From an uncultured Pelagibacteraceae bacterium (GTDB taxonomy: Bacteria; Pseudomonadota; Alphaproteobacteria; Pelagibacterales; Pelagibacteraceae): a stretch of 41,459 bases of DNA. Each line of letters starts with the position of its first letter. Position 1 is the first letter of the stretch. The DNA lies in contig CACHVT010000008.1 in assembly GCA_902583345.1 (NCBI GenBank), positions 1 to 41,459 of the forward strand. The letters run 5' to 3'. Made by a program: the position numbers and the translations under genes. The notes under the pieces are model-generated. The model did no database searches. It was not told where the DNA came from and was given only the letters and a program-made list of their open reading frames with translations. Positions 2,082-9,754 of the stretch are shown piece after piece.

Positions 2082-2504
2082 TTGAGCAAAAAATTTTCAG
2101 AAAAAGATAAAAAAGATTGGGAAAGTTTTATTAATAGCAAAGATAAAATATACGATAAAGATTTTGCAGAAAAAAAAAATCATTTTACAGGACAATCAAT
2201 AAAAACAGTTGATTTGCATGGATCTTCTCTAGAAAAAGCAAACAAAACCGTTAGCGAATATATAAAATATTGCTCGTCTCAAAATATTAAAAAACTAGTA
2301 GTTATTACTGGTAAAGGCTTGAGATCAAAAACTCAAAATGACCCTTATGTTTCAAAAGATTTAAGTATTTTAAAATACTCTGTTCCCAATTTTATTAAAT
2401 CTAAACCAGATTTAATGAAACTTGTTAAAGAAATAAAAGAAGCTAATATAAATGAAGGCGGAAGTGGAGCCTTCAACATTTATTTAAAAACTTTTAAAGA
2501 ATAA
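2082..2504 (+). CDS. Smr domain protein (MutS2 C-terminal-like)
   Basis: This 140-residue protein has the Smr signature: [12 protein letters not shown] (around residue 43), [11 protein letters not shown] (around residue 72), and the terminal [12 protein letters not shown], which corresponds to the family's GGxGAxxVxL. Smr domains are found in MutS2 and as stand-alone putative nucleases. Translation appears to start at a TTG directly after the timA stop, with no gap, so the two genes should be coupled. The 3' end overlaps the convergent hslU by 11 bases. The substrate is unknown. Confidence 0.85.
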
Positions 2505-3864
2505 ACTTAGATAGATCAGTATCTTTCACTAGTTCTCCTAGATTTTTTTTAACATAATCTGAATTAATACTAATTTTCTCTCCTGAATTATCAGTTGCAG
2601 TAAAACTTATATCATCTAGAACTCTTTCAATGATTGTATGAAGTCTTCTTGCGCCAATGTTCTCAACAGTAGAATTCACCTCGGTTGCCAAATTTGCAAT
2701 CGTGTCTATTCCATCCTCAGTAAATTCGAGCTCGACATTTTCAGTTTTTAAAAGGGCCTTATATTGTTTAATTAAGGAATTATCTGGTTCTTTAAGTATT
2801 CTTTTAAAATCTTCACTTGTTAAAGCATCAAGCTCAACCCTGATTGGTAGACGGCCTTGAAGTTCAGGCAAGAGATCAGATGGTTTTGCTAACTGAAAAG
2901 CGCCAGAAGCTATAAACAAAATATGATCTGTTTTTATTGGCCCGTATTTTGTACTAACAGTTGTTCCCTCAATTAGAGGCAATAAATCTCTTTGAACTCC
3001 CTCTCTTGAAACATCTCCACCAGCGCGGTCAGTCCGAGCAGAAATTTTATCTATTTCATCAAGAAAAACTATTCCGTTATTTTCTGTAGAATTTTTTGCT
3101 GTCTTAATAATTTTATCTTGTTCAATCAGTTTATCAGATTCTTCGTTGATTAAAATTTCATGGGACTCTTTAACGGTCATTTTTTTCTTTTTAGGTTTAC
3201 CACCCATTGATTTTCCAAGCATTTCACCCAAGTTTATCATTCCAACATTTGCCCCAGGCATACCTGGTATTTCAAATGAAGGCATTGAGTTGCTCTCATT
3301 AACTGCTATTTCAATCTCATTATCGTCTAAATCACCATTCCTTAATCTTTTCCTAAAACTTTCCCTAGTTGCGATACTTGCTTTGTTTCCAACTAGAGCA
3401 TCAAGAACTTTTTCTTCAGCATTTTTTTGAGCAATTGTCGATACTTCTTTTCTTTTTTTAACCTTTTCCATAGCAATTGCTATCTCCAATAAATCTCTTA
3501 CAATTTGCTCAACGTCCCTTCCAACATAACCAACTTCTGTAAAACGTGTAGCTTCTACTTTTACAAAAGGAGCTTCAGCAAGTTTTGATAATCTTCTAGA
3601 GATTTCAGTTTTTCCAACTCCTGTTGGTCCAATCATTAAAATGTTTTTTGGCAAAACTTCATCCTTCATCTCACCCTCAAGAGCCTGTCTTCTCCATCTA
3701 TTCCTTAGCGCTATTGCAACTGCTCTTTTTGCATTGTTTTGTCCAACAACAAATCTATCTAACTCAGAAACTATCTCCCTTGGAGATAAAGAGCTAATAT
3801 ATGATTTATCGTCATCTTTATTTTTTCCCTTTTGAACTAGAGGTGTGACATTTGAATTTTCCAT
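2494..3864 (-). CDS. hslU: ATP-dependent protease ATPase subunit HslU
   Basis: This 456-residue AAA+ unfoldase matches HslU along its length. It shows [16 protein letters not shown], the Walker A motif GPTGVGKT (79-86), the pore-loop region [10 protein letters not shown], an inserted I-domain (about 110-240), the Walker B motif IVFLDEID, the sensor region [17 protein letters not shown], and the DLSKFIL C terminus that docks into HslV. HslU unfolds substrates and feeds them to the HslV peptidase. It has about 15 extra N-terminal residues relative to the E. coli protein. Its start overlaps the hslV stop by one base. Bases 2605-2642 recur exactly in the hisA/hisF hybrid. Confidence 0.97.
2605..2642 (-). 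repeat. 38-bp exact repeat, source copy inside hslU
   Basis: The reverse complement of these 38 bases is identical to 6807-6844. Here they encode [12 protein letters not shown] of the conserved HslU sensor region (E. coli HslU has a similar segment after GARRLHT), so this is the native copy. The other copy is in an unrelated protein. The two copies form an inverted repeat about 4.2 kb apart. Confidence 0.95.
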
Positions 3865-4379
3865 TAGATTTTTTCTATAGTTACTTTATTATTTGTAAAA
3901 ACGCATATTTCAGAGGCGACTTTTATTGCTTTTTTTGCAATCTCCTCAGCACTCAAATCTGTGTCCATTAATACTTTCGCTGAGGCTAGTGCATAATTTC
4001 CACCTGATCCAATACCGATTACATCTCCTTCTGGTTCTAAAACATCTCCGGTCCCGGAAATTATAAAACTTTTTTCTTTATCACCAATTGCCATTAAAGC
4101 TTCTAATCTTCTTAAATATTTATCAGTTCTCCAATCCTTGGCTAATTCAACAGCAGCTCTTGTTAGATTCCCCGCGTGTTTTTCTAATTTAGACTCTAAT
4201 CTTTCAAATAAAGTAAGTGCATCTGCGGTTGACCCAGCAAAACCTGCAATCACATTTCTTTTCTCAATCTTTCTAACCTTGTTGGCAGTGCTTTTAATAA
4301 CAGTATTACCCATGCTTACCTGTCCATCGCTAGCAACCACAACATCTTTATTCTTTCTAACTAAGACTATTGTTGTCAT
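3864..4379 (-). CDS. hslV: ATP-dependent protease peptidase subunit HslV
   Basis: The protein begins [20 protein letters not shown] from the ATG at 4379. This places the catalytic N-terminal threonine directly after the initiator Met, as in E. coli HslV. An in-frame ATG at 4385 would add Met-Ser and hide that threonine, so the shorter start (171 residues) is preferred. Further family marks are [32 protein letters not shown] and [11 protein letters not shown]. HslV is the proteasome-like dodecameric peptidase driven by HslU. The pair is coupled by a one-base overlap, and hslV is divergent from hisB across about 90 bases. Confidence 0.96.
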
Positions 4380-4434
4380 AGACATTAAATGGATATTATT
4401 TTTGATAGTTCAAGGGCTTTATTAGTTATGTTGA

Positions 4435-4440
4435 TATAAT
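4435..4440 (+). promoter_or_regulatory. Possible -10 box upstream of hisB
   Basis: A perfect TATAAT lies in the hslV-hisB divergent spacer, with its end 29 bases before the hisB ATG. I see no good -35 hexamer at 16-18 bases upstream, so this is a weak proposal. Confidence 0.25.
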
Positions 4441-4469
4441 TAAATAATGAAGATATACCTATAAAAATT

Positions 4470-5060
4470 ATGAAGCGAAAAGCCAACATAACAAGAAAAA
4501 CAAAAGAAACATCAATTAAAGTTGACTTAAACATCGATGGTAAGGGAAAATACAAAATTGATACAGGGATCGGTTTTCTAAATCACATGTTAGAACAACT
4601 ATCAAAGCACTCATCAATGGATTTAAGTATAAAGGCCAAAGGAGATACTCATATTGATTTACATCATACAACTGAGGATACAGGTATTGCAATTGGAGAA
4701 TGCTTAAAAAAAGCATCAAAAAATTTTGTTGGAATCAAAAGATATGCACACGCCTTATTACCTATGGATGAAACGCTGACAAGGGTAGCAATTGATATGT
4801 CAAACAGACCATATTTAATTTGGAATGTAAGGTTGAAGGTAGAAAAACTTGGGGAAATGGATACTGAATTATTTAAAGAATGGTTTCAAGCCTTCTCACA
4901 GGCTGCTGGGATTACTTTACATGTTGAAAATATTTATGGTGATAATAGTCACCACATAATTGAATCTTGTTATAAAGGATTAGCTAGATCTTTAAGGGCA
5001 GCACTTGAATTAGATCCTAAGAATAAAAACACTGTCCCGTCAACAAAAGGCTCTTTGTAA
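4470..5060 (+). CDS. hisB: Imidazoleglycerol-phosphate dehydratase
   Basis: This 196-residue protein is a monofunctional HisB. It catalyses dehydration of imidazole glycerol phosphate to imidazole acetol phosphate in histidine synthesis. The metal-binding motifs are clear: [30 protein letters not shown] and, in the second half, [20 protein letters not shown]. The order hisB-hisH-...-hisE downstream of hslV is typical of alphaproteobacteria. It is the first gene of the his operon here, with hisH 13 bases downstream. Confidence 0.97.
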
Positions 5061-5073
5061 AATTGAAGAATTA

Positions 5074-5700
5074 ATGAAGGTTACTATCGTTGATTATAAT
5101 TCGGGCAATATTAGCTCCGTAATAAACTCTTTTAAGGAAGTTGCTAAAGGTAAAGTTAAAATAGAAATAACTTCAGATTTAAATAAGATTAAATCTAGTG
5201 ACAAAATAGTTTTACCAGGCCAGGGATCTTTTAAGAGTTGTGTGGATGCTATAAACAATATTAATGGTCTTGTAGATGGTTTGAATGAATTCGCAATTAA
5301 TAAAAAAAAACCTCTTCTTGGGATTTGTGTAGGTTTACAAATGTTTTCAGATATAGGCTATGAGGAAACCGAAACAAAAGGTTTAGGTTGGATTTCAGGA
5401 AAAGTGTCAAGAATCGACAATAAAAATGGAAATTATAAACTGCCCCATATAGGCTGGAATCAAATAAGTATTGTCAAGGAAAGTAAAATATTTAAGGATA
5501 TAGACAACAACTCCCATATGTATTTTGTTCATAGCTATGAATTTATTCCTAAGGATAAAACTGTAATTTCAGCCACAACAGATTATTCTTCAAATGTTGT
5601 TTGTGCTGTTGATAAAGAAAATATCTTTGGAACGCAATTTCATCCAGAAAAGAGCGATAAAATTGGACTAAAAATTATTGATAACTTTATTAATTTGTAG
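5074..5700 (+). CDS. hisH: Imidazole glycerol phosphate synthase, glutaminase subunit HisH
   Basis: This 208-residue class I glutamine amidotransferase has the nucleophile elbow LGICVGLQMFSD with the catalytic Cys, and the His/Glu pair in GTQFHPEKS near the C terminus. HisH releases ammonia from glutamine, which passes through the HisF barrel to make imidazole glycerol phosphate. It looks intact. Its partner HisF is represented in this window only by the C-terminal part of the hybrid gene at 6542, so whether a working HisH-HisF complex exists is open. Confidence 0.96.
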   Translation: MKVTIVDYNSGNISSVINSFKEVAKGKVKIEITSDLNKIKSSDKIVLPGQGSFKSCVDAINNINGLVDGLNEFAINKKKPLLGICVGLQMFSDIGYEETETKGLGWISGKVSRIDNKNGNYKLPHIGWNQISIVKESKIFKDIDNNSHMYFVHSYEFIPKDKTVISATTDYSSNVVCAVDKENIFGTQFHPEKSDKIGLKIIDNFINL

Positions 5701-5701
5701 A

Positions 5702-6541
5702 ATGAAAAAACTCGTAAGCATAATTATTATATTTTTAGTTTACTGTAATCATTCTTTTTCAAATGGGCACAAAACAAAGTTTAAAGATATTAAAGGATTT
5801 AAAAAACAATTTATTTCCATGTCTGAAAAGAAAATAAATAGAATTAAAGAGGTTAAAAAATCAGATGGTTTTCCTGTTTTTGAAGGCAAAACTAGTATCC
5901 AATTTACTGTGAATAGAGAGGATGCGGGATGTGGAAAGGGAAAAGCGCAAACAACTCAAATTCAATGTGATGGAAGGGGTAACAGAAGCAGACAAGAATT
6001 AAATCTTGGCAACATGAAATTAAAAAATAAGGAATATATATATGAATATGCAGTTTATTTTGACGAAACTTACAAACCTTTAGAAAAAGGTGCAGTGGTC
6101 ATAATAGGACAAATGCATACCGACAATAAAGCCAAAGGCTGCCATAGCTGTTGTCATTTTTGGTTTCAAGATTTTAAATACAAGGGAGAACATGTTTATA
6201 GTTGGGCAAGTAAAGCTGCTTATTCATCTGAACCAGTTGTAATTGGAAAAATTGATGATTTAAAAGGAAAATGGACACATTTAAAATTTCATGTTTTATG
6301 GAAGTTGGATGAAACAGGAAGATTTAAAATTTATAAAAACAACCAAGTAATTGCTGATCTAAAAAATATAAAGACTCTGGCTGATACATGTACAGGCGGG
6401 TATATGAAAATGGGAATATACAGGCATAGAACAATAGGATACTGGAACTCTGACTGGGAAAGTTTGCAAGATCAAACGGTTTACTTAGACAATATAGTTT
6501 TAAGAAAACCAAAAAAAAAAGAAAAATTTAAAAATAATTAA
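5702..6541 (+). CDS. Secreted polysaccharide lyase-like protein (heparin lyase I-like fold)
   Basis: From the ATG at 5702 the protein has 279 residues with a signal peptide (KKLVSIIIIFLVYCNHSFS). The body matches the jelly-roll polysaccharide lyase pattern. It has RSRQELNLGNMKL, then EYAVYFDETYKP and VVIIGQMHTD, then GKWTHLKFHVLWK, GRFKIYKNNQVIADL and GGYMKMGIYRHRTIG, and finally TVYLDNIVLRK. Several cysteines (GCGKGK, GCHSCCHFW, DTCTGG) suggest disulfides, fitting a periplasmic or outer location. The start is one base after the hisH stop and the stop abuts the hybrid his gene, so it sits inside the his operon. The substrate is unknown; assignment is to fold family only. Confidence 0.72.
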   Translation: MKKLVSIIIIFLVYCNHSFSNGHKTKFKDIKGFKKQFISMSEKKINRIKEVKKSDGFPVFEGKTSIQFTVNREDAGCGKGKAQTTQIQCDGRGNRSRQELNLGNMKLKNKEYIYEYAVYFDETYKPLEKGAVVIIGQMHTDNKAKGCHSCCHFWFQDFKYKGEHVYSWASKAAYSSEPVVIGKIDDLKGKWTHLKFHVLWKLDETGRFKIYKNNQVIADLKNIKTLADTCTGGYMKMGIYRHRTIGYWNSDWESLQDQTVYLDNIVLRKPKKKEKFKNN

Positions 6542-7330
6542 ATGAAAGTATTTCCCGCAATTGATATAATAAATGGAAAGTGTGTAAGGCTTATTAAAGG
6601 GGATTTTAATAATAAAACTGAATATGAGGCTTCACCAGTTGATCAAGCAGGCAAATATGAACGTCATGGTTTTAAGAATTTACACGTTGTTGACTTAGAT
6701 GGTGCTTTAGCTGGAGAAATAGTAAATCTAGATATAATTCAAGATATAGTAAGTAAATTTGATCTTAAAGTTGAGATAGGTGGTGGTATTAGAAATATTG
6801 ATAGTATTCATACAATCATTGAAAGAGTTCTAGATGATATAAGTAAACTACTTAACTGTGGGGCAGATAAAGTTTCAATTAATACAGCTGCTGTTAATGA
6901 TCCAAATGTTGTTGTTGAAGGTTCAAAAAAGTTTGGTTCTCAATGTATTGTGGTTGCAATAGACGCAAAACAAAGTAGAAATAAATGGGAAGTTTTTACT
7001 CATGGAGGAAGAAAAAATACTGGAATAGATGCAGTAGAATTTGCTAAAAAAATGGAGAATAGTGGAGCAGGGGAGCTTTTAGTAACCTCTATGGACAGAG
7101 ATGGGACGCAAGTTGGATTTGATATAGATTTAACATCTACGATATCTAAAAAAGTTAATATACCATTAATCGCCTCAGGAGGAGCAGGTAATTTAGATCA
7201 TTTAGTAGACGGAATTAAACTAGGAAATGCCAGTGCTGTTTTAGCAGCATCAATATTTCACTATGGTAAATATTCTCTTAAAGAAGCAAAGGAATATTTG
7301 GACACAAAAGGAATTCCTGTTAGGATTTAG
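6542..7330 (+). CDS. Hybrid HisA (N-terminal) / HisF (C-terminal) barrel with an hslU-derived insert
   Basis: Residues 1-89 are HisA: VFPAIDIINGKCVRL with catalytic-type Asp8, LHVVDLDGALAGE, and EIGGGIRNIDSI. Residues 102-262 are HisF: LLNCGADKVSINTAAV, CIVVAIDAK with Asp141 (HisF Asp130), EVFTHGGRKNTGIDAVEFAK, GAGELLVTSMDRDGT, PLIASGGAG and AVLAASIFHYG. Residues 90-101 ([12 protein letters not shown]) are encoded by bases identical to part of hslU. Both joins are in frame and fall at equivalent places in the two homologous barrels, so the product would be one full barrel about 11 residues longer than HisF. About 150 HisA and 90 HisF residues are missing. Whether this is natural or an artefact, and whether it has HisA, HisF or no activity, cannot be told from sequence. 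Confidence 0.9.
   Translation: MKVFPAIDIINGKCVRLIKGDFNNKTEYEASPVDQAGKYERHGFKNLHVVDLDGALAGEIVNLDIIQDIVSKFDLKVEIGGGIRNIDSIHTIIERVLDDISKLLNCGADKVSINTAAVNDPNVVVEGSKKFGSQCIVVAIDAKQSRNKWEVFTHGGRKNTGIDAVEFAKKMENSGAGELLVTSMDRDGTQVGFDIDLTSTISKKVNIPLIASGGAGNLDHLVDGIKLGNASAVLAASIFHYGKYSLKEAKEYLDTKGIPVRI
6807..6844 (+). repeat. 38-bp exact repeat of hslU inserted at the hisA/hisF junction
   Basis: These 38 bases equal the reverse complement of 2605-2642. They are read in the same frame as in hslU, giving [12 protein letters not shown] (residues 90-101 of the hybrid). The first two bases are shared by chance with the flanking Ile codon, so the foreign segment is effectively 36 bases, or 12 codons. HisA and HisF have nothing like it between the GGGIR strand and the LLxxGADKVSIN strand. 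Confidence 0.95.
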
Positions 7331-7331
7331 T

Positions 7332-7610
7332 ATGCTTAGTATGCTCGAAAATTTGATTAATTTAGCAAGAGAGAGAAAAAAAAATCCAGTAGAGGGATCA
7401 TACACCAACAAATTATTAATAGATAAATCGTTGAGTAAAGCTAAAGTTCTTGAAGAAATCGATGAGTTAATTAAATCAGTAGAAAAAAATACAAATAAAA
7501 TCCATGAAGCGGCAGATGTGTTTTATCATTTAATAATCTATTTAGAGGCAAACAATATTGACATTGATGAAGTAATGAATGAATTAAAAAAAAGATCACA
7601 AAAAATTTAA
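7332..7610 (+). CDS. hisE: Phosphoribosyl-ATP pyrophosphatase
   Basis: The 92-residue protein matches HisE of the MazG-like all-alpha NTP pyrophosphohydrolase fold. It has NPVEGSYTNKLL, then KVLEEIDELIKSV with metal-binding acidic residues, and HEAADVFYHLIIYLEANNI with the conserved EaaDlxyH pattern. It removes pyrophosphate from phosphoribosyl-ATP, the second step of histidine synthesis. The ATG at 7332 follows the hybrid gene's stop by one base; another Met three codons later is also possible. In related genomes hisE follows hisF, which agrees with the hybrid's HisF-like end. Confidence 0.92.
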   Translation: MLSMLENLINLARERKKNPVEGSYTNKLLIDKSLSKAKVLEEIDELIKSVEKNTNKIHEAADVFYHLIIYLEANNIDIDEVMNELKKRSQKI

Positions 7611-7614
7611 ATAG

Positions 7615-8475
7615 ATGAAATTAAATGAATTTATTTTTTCATATAAAACAATTTTAAAATTATTTATTAACGAAAAAAAATATTTTAAAGTATTTAGGAA
7701 AATTTTTGGTTATCCATATAAATATTTATTAGAGATTTTAAGAATATTTTTTTCAATTAAAAAAAATTTGGATGATAAAAAATTCGACCATTTAAAAAAT
7801 AAATCCTTAGATGATTTATTTATATTCTTTAATTCAGATAAAGGAACTAAAGTTTTTTTTGGGGATAAAGTTGTAAATGGCCATAATTACTCTCATCTTT
7901 ATGAAAAGTATTTTTTAAAATATAAATCTAAAAAGGAAATAAAAATTTTAGAAATAGGTTCATTAATAGGAGCAAGTGCAGCATCTTTTTTAAAATATTT
8001 TGATGATCCTGAAATTTTTTGCTTAGATGTAAATCCTTTTCAAATTCAATATACATCAAAAAAAATTAAAAAATTTTATTTAAATACACGATATAGAAAT
8101 ACATTAAATCAGGTTTCAAGTTATTTAGACTTTAAATTTGATATTATAATTGATGATGGAAGTCATAACAAAAGAGATCAAATATTAACGCTAAATTATT
8201 TTTTGCCTAAAGTTAAAAATAAAGGTATTTATGTAATTGAAGATACTTGCCATTATTTAAGTGTTCCCGCTTTAAATGATGACAATTTAGACTATGGAAC
8301 TAACGAGTTTGTACAATCAATCTTTGATACCGGAAATCATTATTGCAAATATCTAGATCAATCAGAAAAATTAAATATACATAAAATGATAAGTACTTTA
8401 AATATAGAAAAAGGAAATTTTATTTTTAATAATAAGAGTTTACCTGAAATAATATTTATAGAAAAAAAACAATAA
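7615..8475 (+). CDS. Class I SAM-dependent methyltransferase-like protein
   Basis: The protein has 286 residues. A Lys/Phe-rich N-terminal part (about 1-95) is followed by a Rossmann-type methyltransferase core. Motif I reads IKILEIGSLIGASAASFLKYF, an acidic end of strand 2 is in IFCLDVNPFQ, and motif IV-like DIIIDDGSHNKRDQ is followed by GIYVIEDTCHY. This IIDDGSH...YVIEDT pattern is typical of methyltransferases linked to sugar or antibiotic modification. The substrate is unknown. It starts four bases after hisE and may be carried by the his transcript, but no functional link is evident. Confidence 0.72.
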   Translation: MKLNEFIFSYKTILKLFINEKKYFKVFRKIFGYPYKYLLEILRIFFSIKKNLDDKKFDHLKNKSLDDLFIFFNSDKGTKVFFGDKVVNGHNYSHLYEKYFLKYKSKKEIKILEIGSLIGASAASFLKYFDDPEIFCLDVNPFQIQYTSKKIKKFYLNTRYRNTLNQVSSYLDFKFDIIIDDGSHNKRDQILTLNYFLPKVKNKGIYVIEDTCHYLSVPALNDDNLDYGTNEFVQSIFDTGNHYCKYLDQSEKLNIHKMISTLNIEKGNFIFNNKSLPEIIFIEKKQ

Positions 8476-8544
8476 TCAAACTATATTAATATAAAAATTA
8501 AGTATTCAATGATCGAACTTAATAAAAAATGAAAGTAAATTTTT

Positions 8545-8883
8545 ATGAGTAAAATAAAAATTATTTTTTTAATTATTTTAGTATTTATAATATACAAAGG
8601 AGTCATAGCAGTTAAAAATTTTGAGATAGGAGTTGGAGGTAGGGTCGCAATGATTGAAGAACAAGCAGGTTTTGAAAAAGAGGGAGAAGCGATTGGTCTT
8701 ATGATGTACCTAGATGGAGAACTTCAGGAACATTTATTAACTCCATCTAGATCAAAATGTTTGAAAATGAAAAAAATTGCAGAGGAAACATCTTATGCGG
8801 ATTATGAATGCGCTGTTGTGTTGGCAGTATTGCAGGGAAATAAAATATTAAGTATTATTGAAGAAATTGAGGTTATTGAATGA
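8545..8883 (+). CDS. Small membrane-anchored protein of unknown function
   Basis: The family is not recognised. The 112-residue protein has one N-terminal hydrophobic helix (IKIIFLIILVFIIYKGVIA) and a roughly 90-residue soluble part rich in Glu, with two cysteines (SKCLKM and YECAVV). It would be anchored in the inner membrane with the soluble part probably periplasmic. Its stop overlaps the start of the HIT gene in an ATGA, so the two should be translationally coupled. It is preceded by about 70 bases of AT-rich spacer in which I see no clear promoter. Coding status is supported by coupling and by a normal start. Confidence 0.7.
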   Translation: MSKIKIIFLIILVFIIYKGVIAVKNFEIGVGGRVAMIEEQAGFEKEGEAIGLMMYLDGELQEHLLTPSRSKCLKMKKIAEETSYADYECAVVLAVLQGNKILSIIEEIEVIE

Positions 8884-9245
8884 AATATGATGATGATAAT
8901 ATTTTTGCAAAAATACTAAGAGGAGAAATACCTTGTAAAAAAATATACGAGGATAATTTTGTTTTATCTTTTCATGATATAAATCCTCAAAAGAAAATTC
9001 ATGCTTTAGTAATACCAAAAGGAAAATATGTAGATTTAGATGATTTTTCTGAAAATGCATCTCCAGAGGAAATTGTTGGATTATTAAAGGGCATCAAGAT
9101 AGTTGCTCAAAAATTAAAAATATCAACAGATAAAGGCAAAGGTTACCGTGCATTGGTAAATATTGGTGAAAACGGAGGCCAAGAAGTCCCACATTTTCAT
9201 TTTCATTTATTTGGTGGCGAAAAAATTGGTAGAATGGTTCAGTGA
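8880..9245 (+). CDS. HIT family (HinT-like) nucleotide hydrolase
   Basis: The 121-residue protein shows the HinT layout: NIFAKILRGEIPCKKIYED, VLSFHDINPQKKIHALVIPKG, and the histidine triad HFHFHLFGG near the C terminus, preceded by NIGENGGQEVPH. HinT proteins hydrolyse AMP-lysine-type phosphoramidates such as aminoacyl-adenylates in the cytosol. It overlaps the preceding small gene (ATGA) and the following GNAT gene (GTGA), forming a tight three-gene unit. Confidence 0.95.
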   Translation: MKYDDDNIFAKILRGEIPCKKIYEDNFVLSFHDINPQKKIHALVIPKGKYVDLDDFSENASPEEIVGLLKGIKIVAQKLKISTDKGKGYRALVNIGENGGQEVPHFHFHLFGGEKIGRMVQ

Positions 9246-9754
9246 TTGAAATTATATCAAGAACCTATTTAGAAATCAAATCTCTTAATAAATTAAATGA
9301 GGTTGTAAAACCGACGGGCAATTATTCAATTTATTTAGTTGATCCAAATGATTTCCAATTAAACAAATTCCTATACAAACAAATTGGTAAAAAATATTTT
9401 TGGAAAGATAGATTAGAATGGTCCAATAAAAACTGGATAGATTATGTATCAGATAAAAAAATCTCAACATATGTCTTGAAAGATAATAATGATATTGTTG
9501 GTTATTTTGAATTAATTTTTCACAAAGCTAAAGAAGAGGCTGAAATTGCATATTTTGGTATTTTAGAAAATTATTTTGGAAAAAAACTAGGTGGCTATCT
9601 TTTAAGTCAAGCAATTAAAAAAGCCTTTGAATTAAATATAACTCGTTTATGGTTACATACATGTTCTTTGGATCACAAAAATGCTCTGAAAAATTATTTA
9701 TCTAGAGGAATGGATATTTTCAAATCTGAGACATTAAAAGCAAAAATTGCCTAG
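9242..9754 (+). CDS. GNAT family N-acetyltransferase
   Basis: The 170-residue protein has a GNAT fold. It shows YVLKDNNDIVGYFELIF (strands 2-4), EAEIAYFGILENYFGKKLGGYLLSQAIKKA with the acetyl-CoA pyrophosphate loop as a variant of Q/RxxGxG/A, and LWLHTCSLDHKNALKNYLSRGM with the family's C-terminal motif B. It starts with a GTG overlapping the HIT gene's stop. The acceptor substrate is unknown. The 3' end shares the palindrome CTAG with lolA, so each gene's TAG stop lies within the same four bases on opposite strands. Confidence 0.85.
   Translation: MIEIISRTYLEIKSLNKLNEVVKPTGNYSIYLVDPNDFQLNKFLYKQIGKKYFWKDRLEWSNKNWIDYVSDKKISTYVLKDNNDIVGYFELIFHKAKEEAEIAYFGILENYFGKKLGGYLLSQAIKKAFELNITRLWLHTCSLDHKNALKNYLSRGMDIFKSETLKAKIA

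Follow-up and report, generated by a model that had tools for sequence, protein, structure and literature searches.

Does an open frame that begins as HisA and ends as HisF represent a gene of a living Pelagibacteraceae (SAR11) cell, or a product of the way in which its genome was obtained? The frame in question has 262 codons and occupies positions 6542-7330 of the plus strand of the window, by which we mean the whole stretch of 41,459 nucleotides that was analyzed. An earlier note on this DNA had described it as a single gene with HisA motifs in the N-terminal segment and HisF motifs in the C-terminal segment. This description is correct, both in the list of open reading frames of the window and in a Pfam search, in which the His_biosynth family matched residues 3-244 with 268.2 bits. 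HisA accounts for residues 1-89 and HisF for approximately residues 98-262. The features of the locus are collected in Table 1.

Table 1. Features of the chimeric locus and of the source of its filler (feature, position in the window, strand, basis or remark)
hisA 5' part	6542..6806	+	Residues 1-88 and first base of codon 89; nucleotide identity to relatives' hisA
hslU-derived filler	6807..6844	+	38-bp exact inverted copy; in frame, residues 90-101 and last two bases of codon 89
hisF 3' part	6833..7330	+	Residues 98-262; nucleotide homology to relatives' hisF
hslU, whole, source gene	2494..3864	-	TIGR00390, 615.3 bits vs cut-off of 362.45
Filler source inside hslU	2605..2642	-	Exact inverted match to 6807-6844
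hisB (presumed name), neighbor	4470..5060	+	ORF; aligned with 72 relatives
hisH (presumed name), neighbor	5074..5700	+	ORF; aligned with 73 relatives
hisE (presumed name), neighbor	7332..7610	+	ORF; aligned with 80 relatives; start read from the sequence

The order of genes at the locus is hisH, a polysaccharide-lyase-like gene, the chimeric frame and hisE. The names hisB, hisH and hisE are those that we take the three neighboring frames to deserve; for hisE, the ORF listing has an earlier ATG at 7263. The observation that no separate hisA or hisF exists in the window was extended by a profile search of the entire assembly (1.128 Mb, 47 contigs, 86.84% complete), which found no second hisA or hisF. 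PF00977 had three matches in the assembly, of which two were weak and below the cut-off. The polysaccharide-lyase-like gene (window 5678-6541; PF14099, 4.8e-24 for 5705-6541) separates hisH from the hisA fragment; in one relative (G003, locus L142) hisA comes directly after hisH. A methyltransferase-like gene (PF13578, window 7615-8475) adjoins hisE. In L142, a gene of the PF13578 family is found between hisA and hisF, and a similar-looking frame follows hisE (L142:6164-7033, 8082-8936). The placements of the methyltransferase-like gene suggest that the his cluster of SAR11 is a site of gain and loss of single genes.

The join between the two parts is informative. Residues 90-101 of the chimera, which the earlier note had left unassigned, belong to neither HisA nor HisF and are identical to a segment of the HslU protein. 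The corresponding 38 bases are identical, at 38 of 38 positions, to the reverse complement of a segment of hslU. This segment is located 4.2 kb from the copy (4165 bp), and the copy is inverted. No other inverted exact match in the window exceeds 19 bp, and in 30 imitations of it generated by a first-order Markov model the longest reached 24 bp. When the genome was searched with its own positions 6750-6900, the filler was encountered elsewhere in hslU only. The first four bases of the filler are common to the hisA of most relatives, and its last 12 positions fall within the hisF homology. Because the junction consists of an inverted scrap of hslU, the ends of which overlap the hisA and hisF homologies, an artefact in the source contig, already named in the earlier note as a serious alternative, is the best-supported reading. 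We put at about 0.8 the probability that the HisA-HisF frame is a chimera that arose during multiple displacement amplification (MDA) of the DNA of one SAR11 cell and entered its assembly.

We compared the locus with the hisA and hisF genes of relatives, as the earlier note had proposed. Nucleotide identity is approximately 74-82% between the hisA part and the hisA of relatives (86% for the partial row L019), and up to 84% between the hisF part and their hisF. With the uncut query, the homology to hisA extends to 6810 in 23 of 32 loci, and with a query cut at 6812 it does so in 61 of 78, which results in an overlap of four bases with the hslU copy. On the other side, 26 of 34 loci place the start of the hisF homology at 6833 and the remaining eight at 6824-6834, hence an overlap of 12 positions; for the comparison with 78 relatives, the hisF query was itself cut at 6833. 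The chimera is short of sequence that its relatives possess. Both parts could be placed in 78 of the 80 named relatives, in which a median of 723 bp (714-761) separates the positions that correspond to 6806 and 6845. In the chimera, approximately 723 bp of the relatives' sequence is replaced by the filler. We also counted the bases shared exactly at the two edges, with the relatives' genes as proxies for the original hisA and hisF of this species. At the hisA-hslU edge, the shared run is four bases in 58 of the 78 relatives, two in 9, one in 8, and six, three and zero in a single relative each. At the hslU-hisF edge, it is one base in 37, three in 23, zero in 13, nine in 4 and eleven in 1 of the 78.

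Three oddities in this comparison had trivial causes. A 445-residue hisA-hisF frame in G030 has a run of unknown residues between its parts and is joined across a gap; G003 has a methyltransferase-like gene between hisA and hisF; and the hisA of G025 runs off the end of its contig. The genomes G006, G031 and G035 were without any full match. The junction pattern had no exact match in genome_contigs and none in viral_contigs, collections that may lack the records closest to the window. A search of 399 genomes of the genus gave a match of some kind in 348; among the matches listed, that of the genome of origin alone spans the junction. The absence of the junction from relatives says little, since none of those searched is of the same species (the best hisF match has 84% nucleotide identity). 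The phage search yielded only two hisF matches, both from Acinetobacter phages.

How would such a molecule have come about? During MDA, a growing 3' end that was copying hisA would have been displaced and would have primed on the other strand, 4.2 kb off within hslU, by means of a short run of common bases (TTCA or slightly more). Approximately 38 bases of hslU would have been copied before a second displacement, followed by priming back onto hisF, where additional bases in common (within GATGATATAAGT) may have helped. Approximately 720 bp, from the 3' portion of hisA into the 5' portion of hisF, would have been skipped in the process. The chimeric molecule would then have become the sole version of the locus in the assembly, and the cell itself most probably carries normal hisA and hisF genes side by side. 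Lasken and Stockwell reported that 406 of 475 MDA chimeras were inverted, that 337 of these 406 spanned less than 10 kb, and that complementary bases were present at 93.5% of the inverted junctions below 10 kb (PMC1855051). In the present case both switches are inverted and span less than 10 kb, and the complementary bases at the hisA-hslU junction, judged with relatives' hisA as a proxy, are within the range of 2-21. That the genome itself derives from a single cell is suggested by the names of its relatives: 78 of the 80 named records are of the AG-, AH- or SAG- type and two are MetaBAT metagenome bins. We take AG- and AH- names to denote single-cell genomes, and some of the records so named are titled 'MAG:'. 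Misassemblies in the single-cell workflow of GORG-Tropics averaged 1.5 per 100 kb in benchmarks (PMC11247762), and the single-cell genomes of Prochlorococcus marinus tended toward the fewest (PMC5519541).

Some of our observations count against an artefact, and the main rival to the amplification chimera is a recent and real mutation in the sampled cell or clone. A microhomology-mediated template switch at the replication fork would in that event have deleted approximately 720 bp, left the inverted hslU filler, and destroyed both hisA and hisF, with histidine auxotrophy as the outcome. A living cell could form an identical scar; inverted filler, deletion and shared bases are equally typical of template switching in vivo, and all of these features are present here. 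The assembly is without an intact hisA or hisF elsewhere. At the hisF edge, the bases shared exactly with relatives are few, which also weighs against the artefact.

A further point in favor of a mutation, and against amplification, is that the scar is the sole one of its kind found in the assembly. In 1.10 of the 1.128 Mb, no other complex inverted exact repeat of at least 22 bp was found on one contig. The counts exclude repeats that are of low complexity, overlap themselves or lie less than 30 bp apart; this filter kept 3 of 24 raw repeats in the genome itself and none of 3 inverted ones in the 80 named his-locus stretches (0.92 Mb). The complete genome of the relative G012 retained eight inverted repeats, with the closest pair 42 kb apart. 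Two direct exact repeats, of 26 and 22 bp, connect C2:51446-51888 and C34:379-821 of the present genome (G000); their same register on two contigs points to paralogues or a duplicated region. We also scanned the assembly gene by gene against G012. Five of 1103 G012 frames match two frames of the assembly, and 28 G012 frames are matched only in part. Fourteen of these 28 are away from contig or stretch ends, and on their account other gene-level lesions in the assembly are possible. The scan is blind to the hisA-hisF lesion itself, as a whole HisF aligns to the chimera. Conversely, 7 of 1063 frames of the assembly each match two overlapping G012 frames, which looks like frameshifts or sequencing errors in G012.

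The state of the histidine pathway bears on the same rival. Very few sampled cells should carry a knock-out of a pathway that they need, and the remainder of the pathway that we looked for is kept: the locus has hisB, hisH and hisE, and other parts of the assembly have hisG, hisD (two matches) and hisI. Terminal amino-acid branches were measured on a fixed tree of 33 sequences, thinned from the 76 that hold all eight gene pieces by the dropping of near-identical ones. The ratio of the his to the non-his branch is 1.57 (rank 15 of 33), and that of the chimera parts to hisB, hisH and hisE combined is 1.42 (rank 14 of 33). The absolute branches are long, at 0.16 for the his genes (second of 33, after L141) and 0.206 for the chimera parts (third of 33). 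The ratios are ordinary and give no clear sign of long-lasting decay, which argues against an old, tolerated lesion. Both fragments seemingly were under ordinary constraint until recently, or are so still in the living cell.

A cruder count hinted otherwise. Among the genes of window 2494-9754, at columns that are at least 98% invariant, the deviations are 4/149 in hisB, 4/115 in hisH, 3/35 in hisE, 2/42 in the HisA part and 4/115 in the HisF part, summing to 17/456. This compares with 2/570 for four non-his neighbors at the same threshold (hslU 1/330, hslV 0/125, HIT 1/72, acetyltransferase 0/43). The deviation of the his genes exceeds that of nearly all relatives, and that of hslU, hslV, HIT and acetyltransferase does not. 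Real decay is conceivable from this pattern, which would favor a mutation over an artefact. We set aside relaxed selection or decay of the pathway as an explanation, as we judge the fixed-tree ratios to be better controlled. In our reading, the hint stems from the long branch and from a sample picked by HisF similarity, and these do not explain it fully. Auxotrophy as a settled trait, one of the possibilities raised in the earlier note, finds no good support in these data. A recent template-switch deletion in the cell is a different matter, and we regard it as unlikely, albeit serious enough to be kept in mind.

A pure error of the assembly graph or of scaffolding would require no chimeric molecule at all. 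Such errors do occur, as in the gap-joined frame of G030. The chimeric region, however, is without Ns, and the overlaps at its edges (approximately 4-6 bases on one side and at most 12 on the other) are below the length of 21-base words. With the word sizes that SPAdes uses, reads that span the junction must therefore have existed, and a chimeric molecule most likely existed as well. Words of 21 bases are used for read normalization in a published form of the single-cell workflow (PMC5519541). We assign this explanation next to no weight.

Could the frame be what it appears to be, a working enzyme? A living SAR11 cell would then have HisA strands 1-3 in frame with the rest of HisF by way of the hslU switch, and this chimeric (beta/alpha)8 barrel, fixed in the lineage, would fold and may keep HisA activity, HisF activity or both. 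In favor of this reading are the open frame and two aspartates, Asp8 in the HisA part and Asp141 in the HisF part, whose columns are invariant across all 35 rows of our alignment (the chimera, 17 of 68 located HisA and 17 of 79 located HisF from relatives). The structure was modeled with AlphaFold2, a step that the earlier note had also suggested. The model (mean pLDDT of 84.5, pTM of 0.86) has, by our count, the eight strands and the helices of a complete barrel, with a helix at residues 92-105 in the region of the insert and pLDDT below 50 at residues 86-90. The chimera could, according to the model, fold as a complete barrel. The input alignment was composed of HisA and HisF homologues, and because both parents share the fold, the prediction is weak evidence of anything beyond foldability. 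The proposal that the join preserves a full barrel holds in this prediction only, and the join is not seamless: 11 alignment columns of the chimera are absent from all 34 aligned HisA and HisF rows.

Family membership is less favorable to a working enzyme. The chimera scores 198.3 against TIGR00007 (HisA), below the NCBIfam equivalog cut-off of 228.95, and 242.3 against TIGR00735 (HisF), below that of 294.55, whereas the separate proteins of the relative L153 pass their own cut-offs (HisA 270.3, HisF 349.4). The idea of a dual enzyme thus receives no support. In addition, neither retained part has an unusual evolutionary ratio, the N-terminal residues of HisF are lost though its partner hisH is kept, and the junction was not found in the relatives searched. 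We consider a working barrel highly improbable. That the frame is open and the join is near the homologous position of the barrel is, by a rough reckoning, a coincidence of a few percent if the junction is an artefact, and this counts against the amplification chimera. The HisA-HisF fusion is nonetheless most likely not a real gene.

A genuine fusion would be a parallel in nature to the half-barrel experiments done in the laboratory and would bear witness to recombination among (beta/alpha)8 enzymes. As an amplification chimera it is a warning that single-cell assemblies can hold chimeras that are in frame, resemble proteins and satisfy a general family search, here with the Pfam score given above, and that could be annotated as his enzymes. 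What exposed this one was a short inverted copy of a nearby gene at the point of fusion.

The chimera can be set beside four known systems. The natural fusions hisHF and HIS7 keep both of their domains. They have in common with the chimera that two his genes share one frame (PMC1963479); unlike in those fusions, HisF is here without approximately a third and HisA without more. Among the titles and opening lines of abstracts listed for the literature on HisA/HisF chimeras and fusions, none reports a natural HisA-HisF chimera. In the laboratory, HisA-HisF half-barrel chimeras were reportedly obtained by Hocker et al. in 2004 (cited in PMC8250049), and the present frame likewise combines, in a single barrel, N-terminal strands from HisA with C-terminal ones from HisF. 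It is cut after strand 3, whereas the laboratory half-barrels are cut after strand 4, and it has an HslU-derived insert in the join, with neither design nor selection. Rearrangements by template switching in vivo, of the MMBIR type, combine a deletion with a short inverted filler, as does the chimera, and are indistinguishable from MDA chimeras by sequence alone. The chimera differs from the MDA (phi29) chimeras in its two consecutive switches with only 38 bases between them and in its presence in an assembly consensus rather than in a single read (PMC1855051). It resembles them in its inverted segments less than 10 kb apart, in the loss of the intervening sequence, and in the short run of shared bases, here at least at the hisA edge (PMC1855051).
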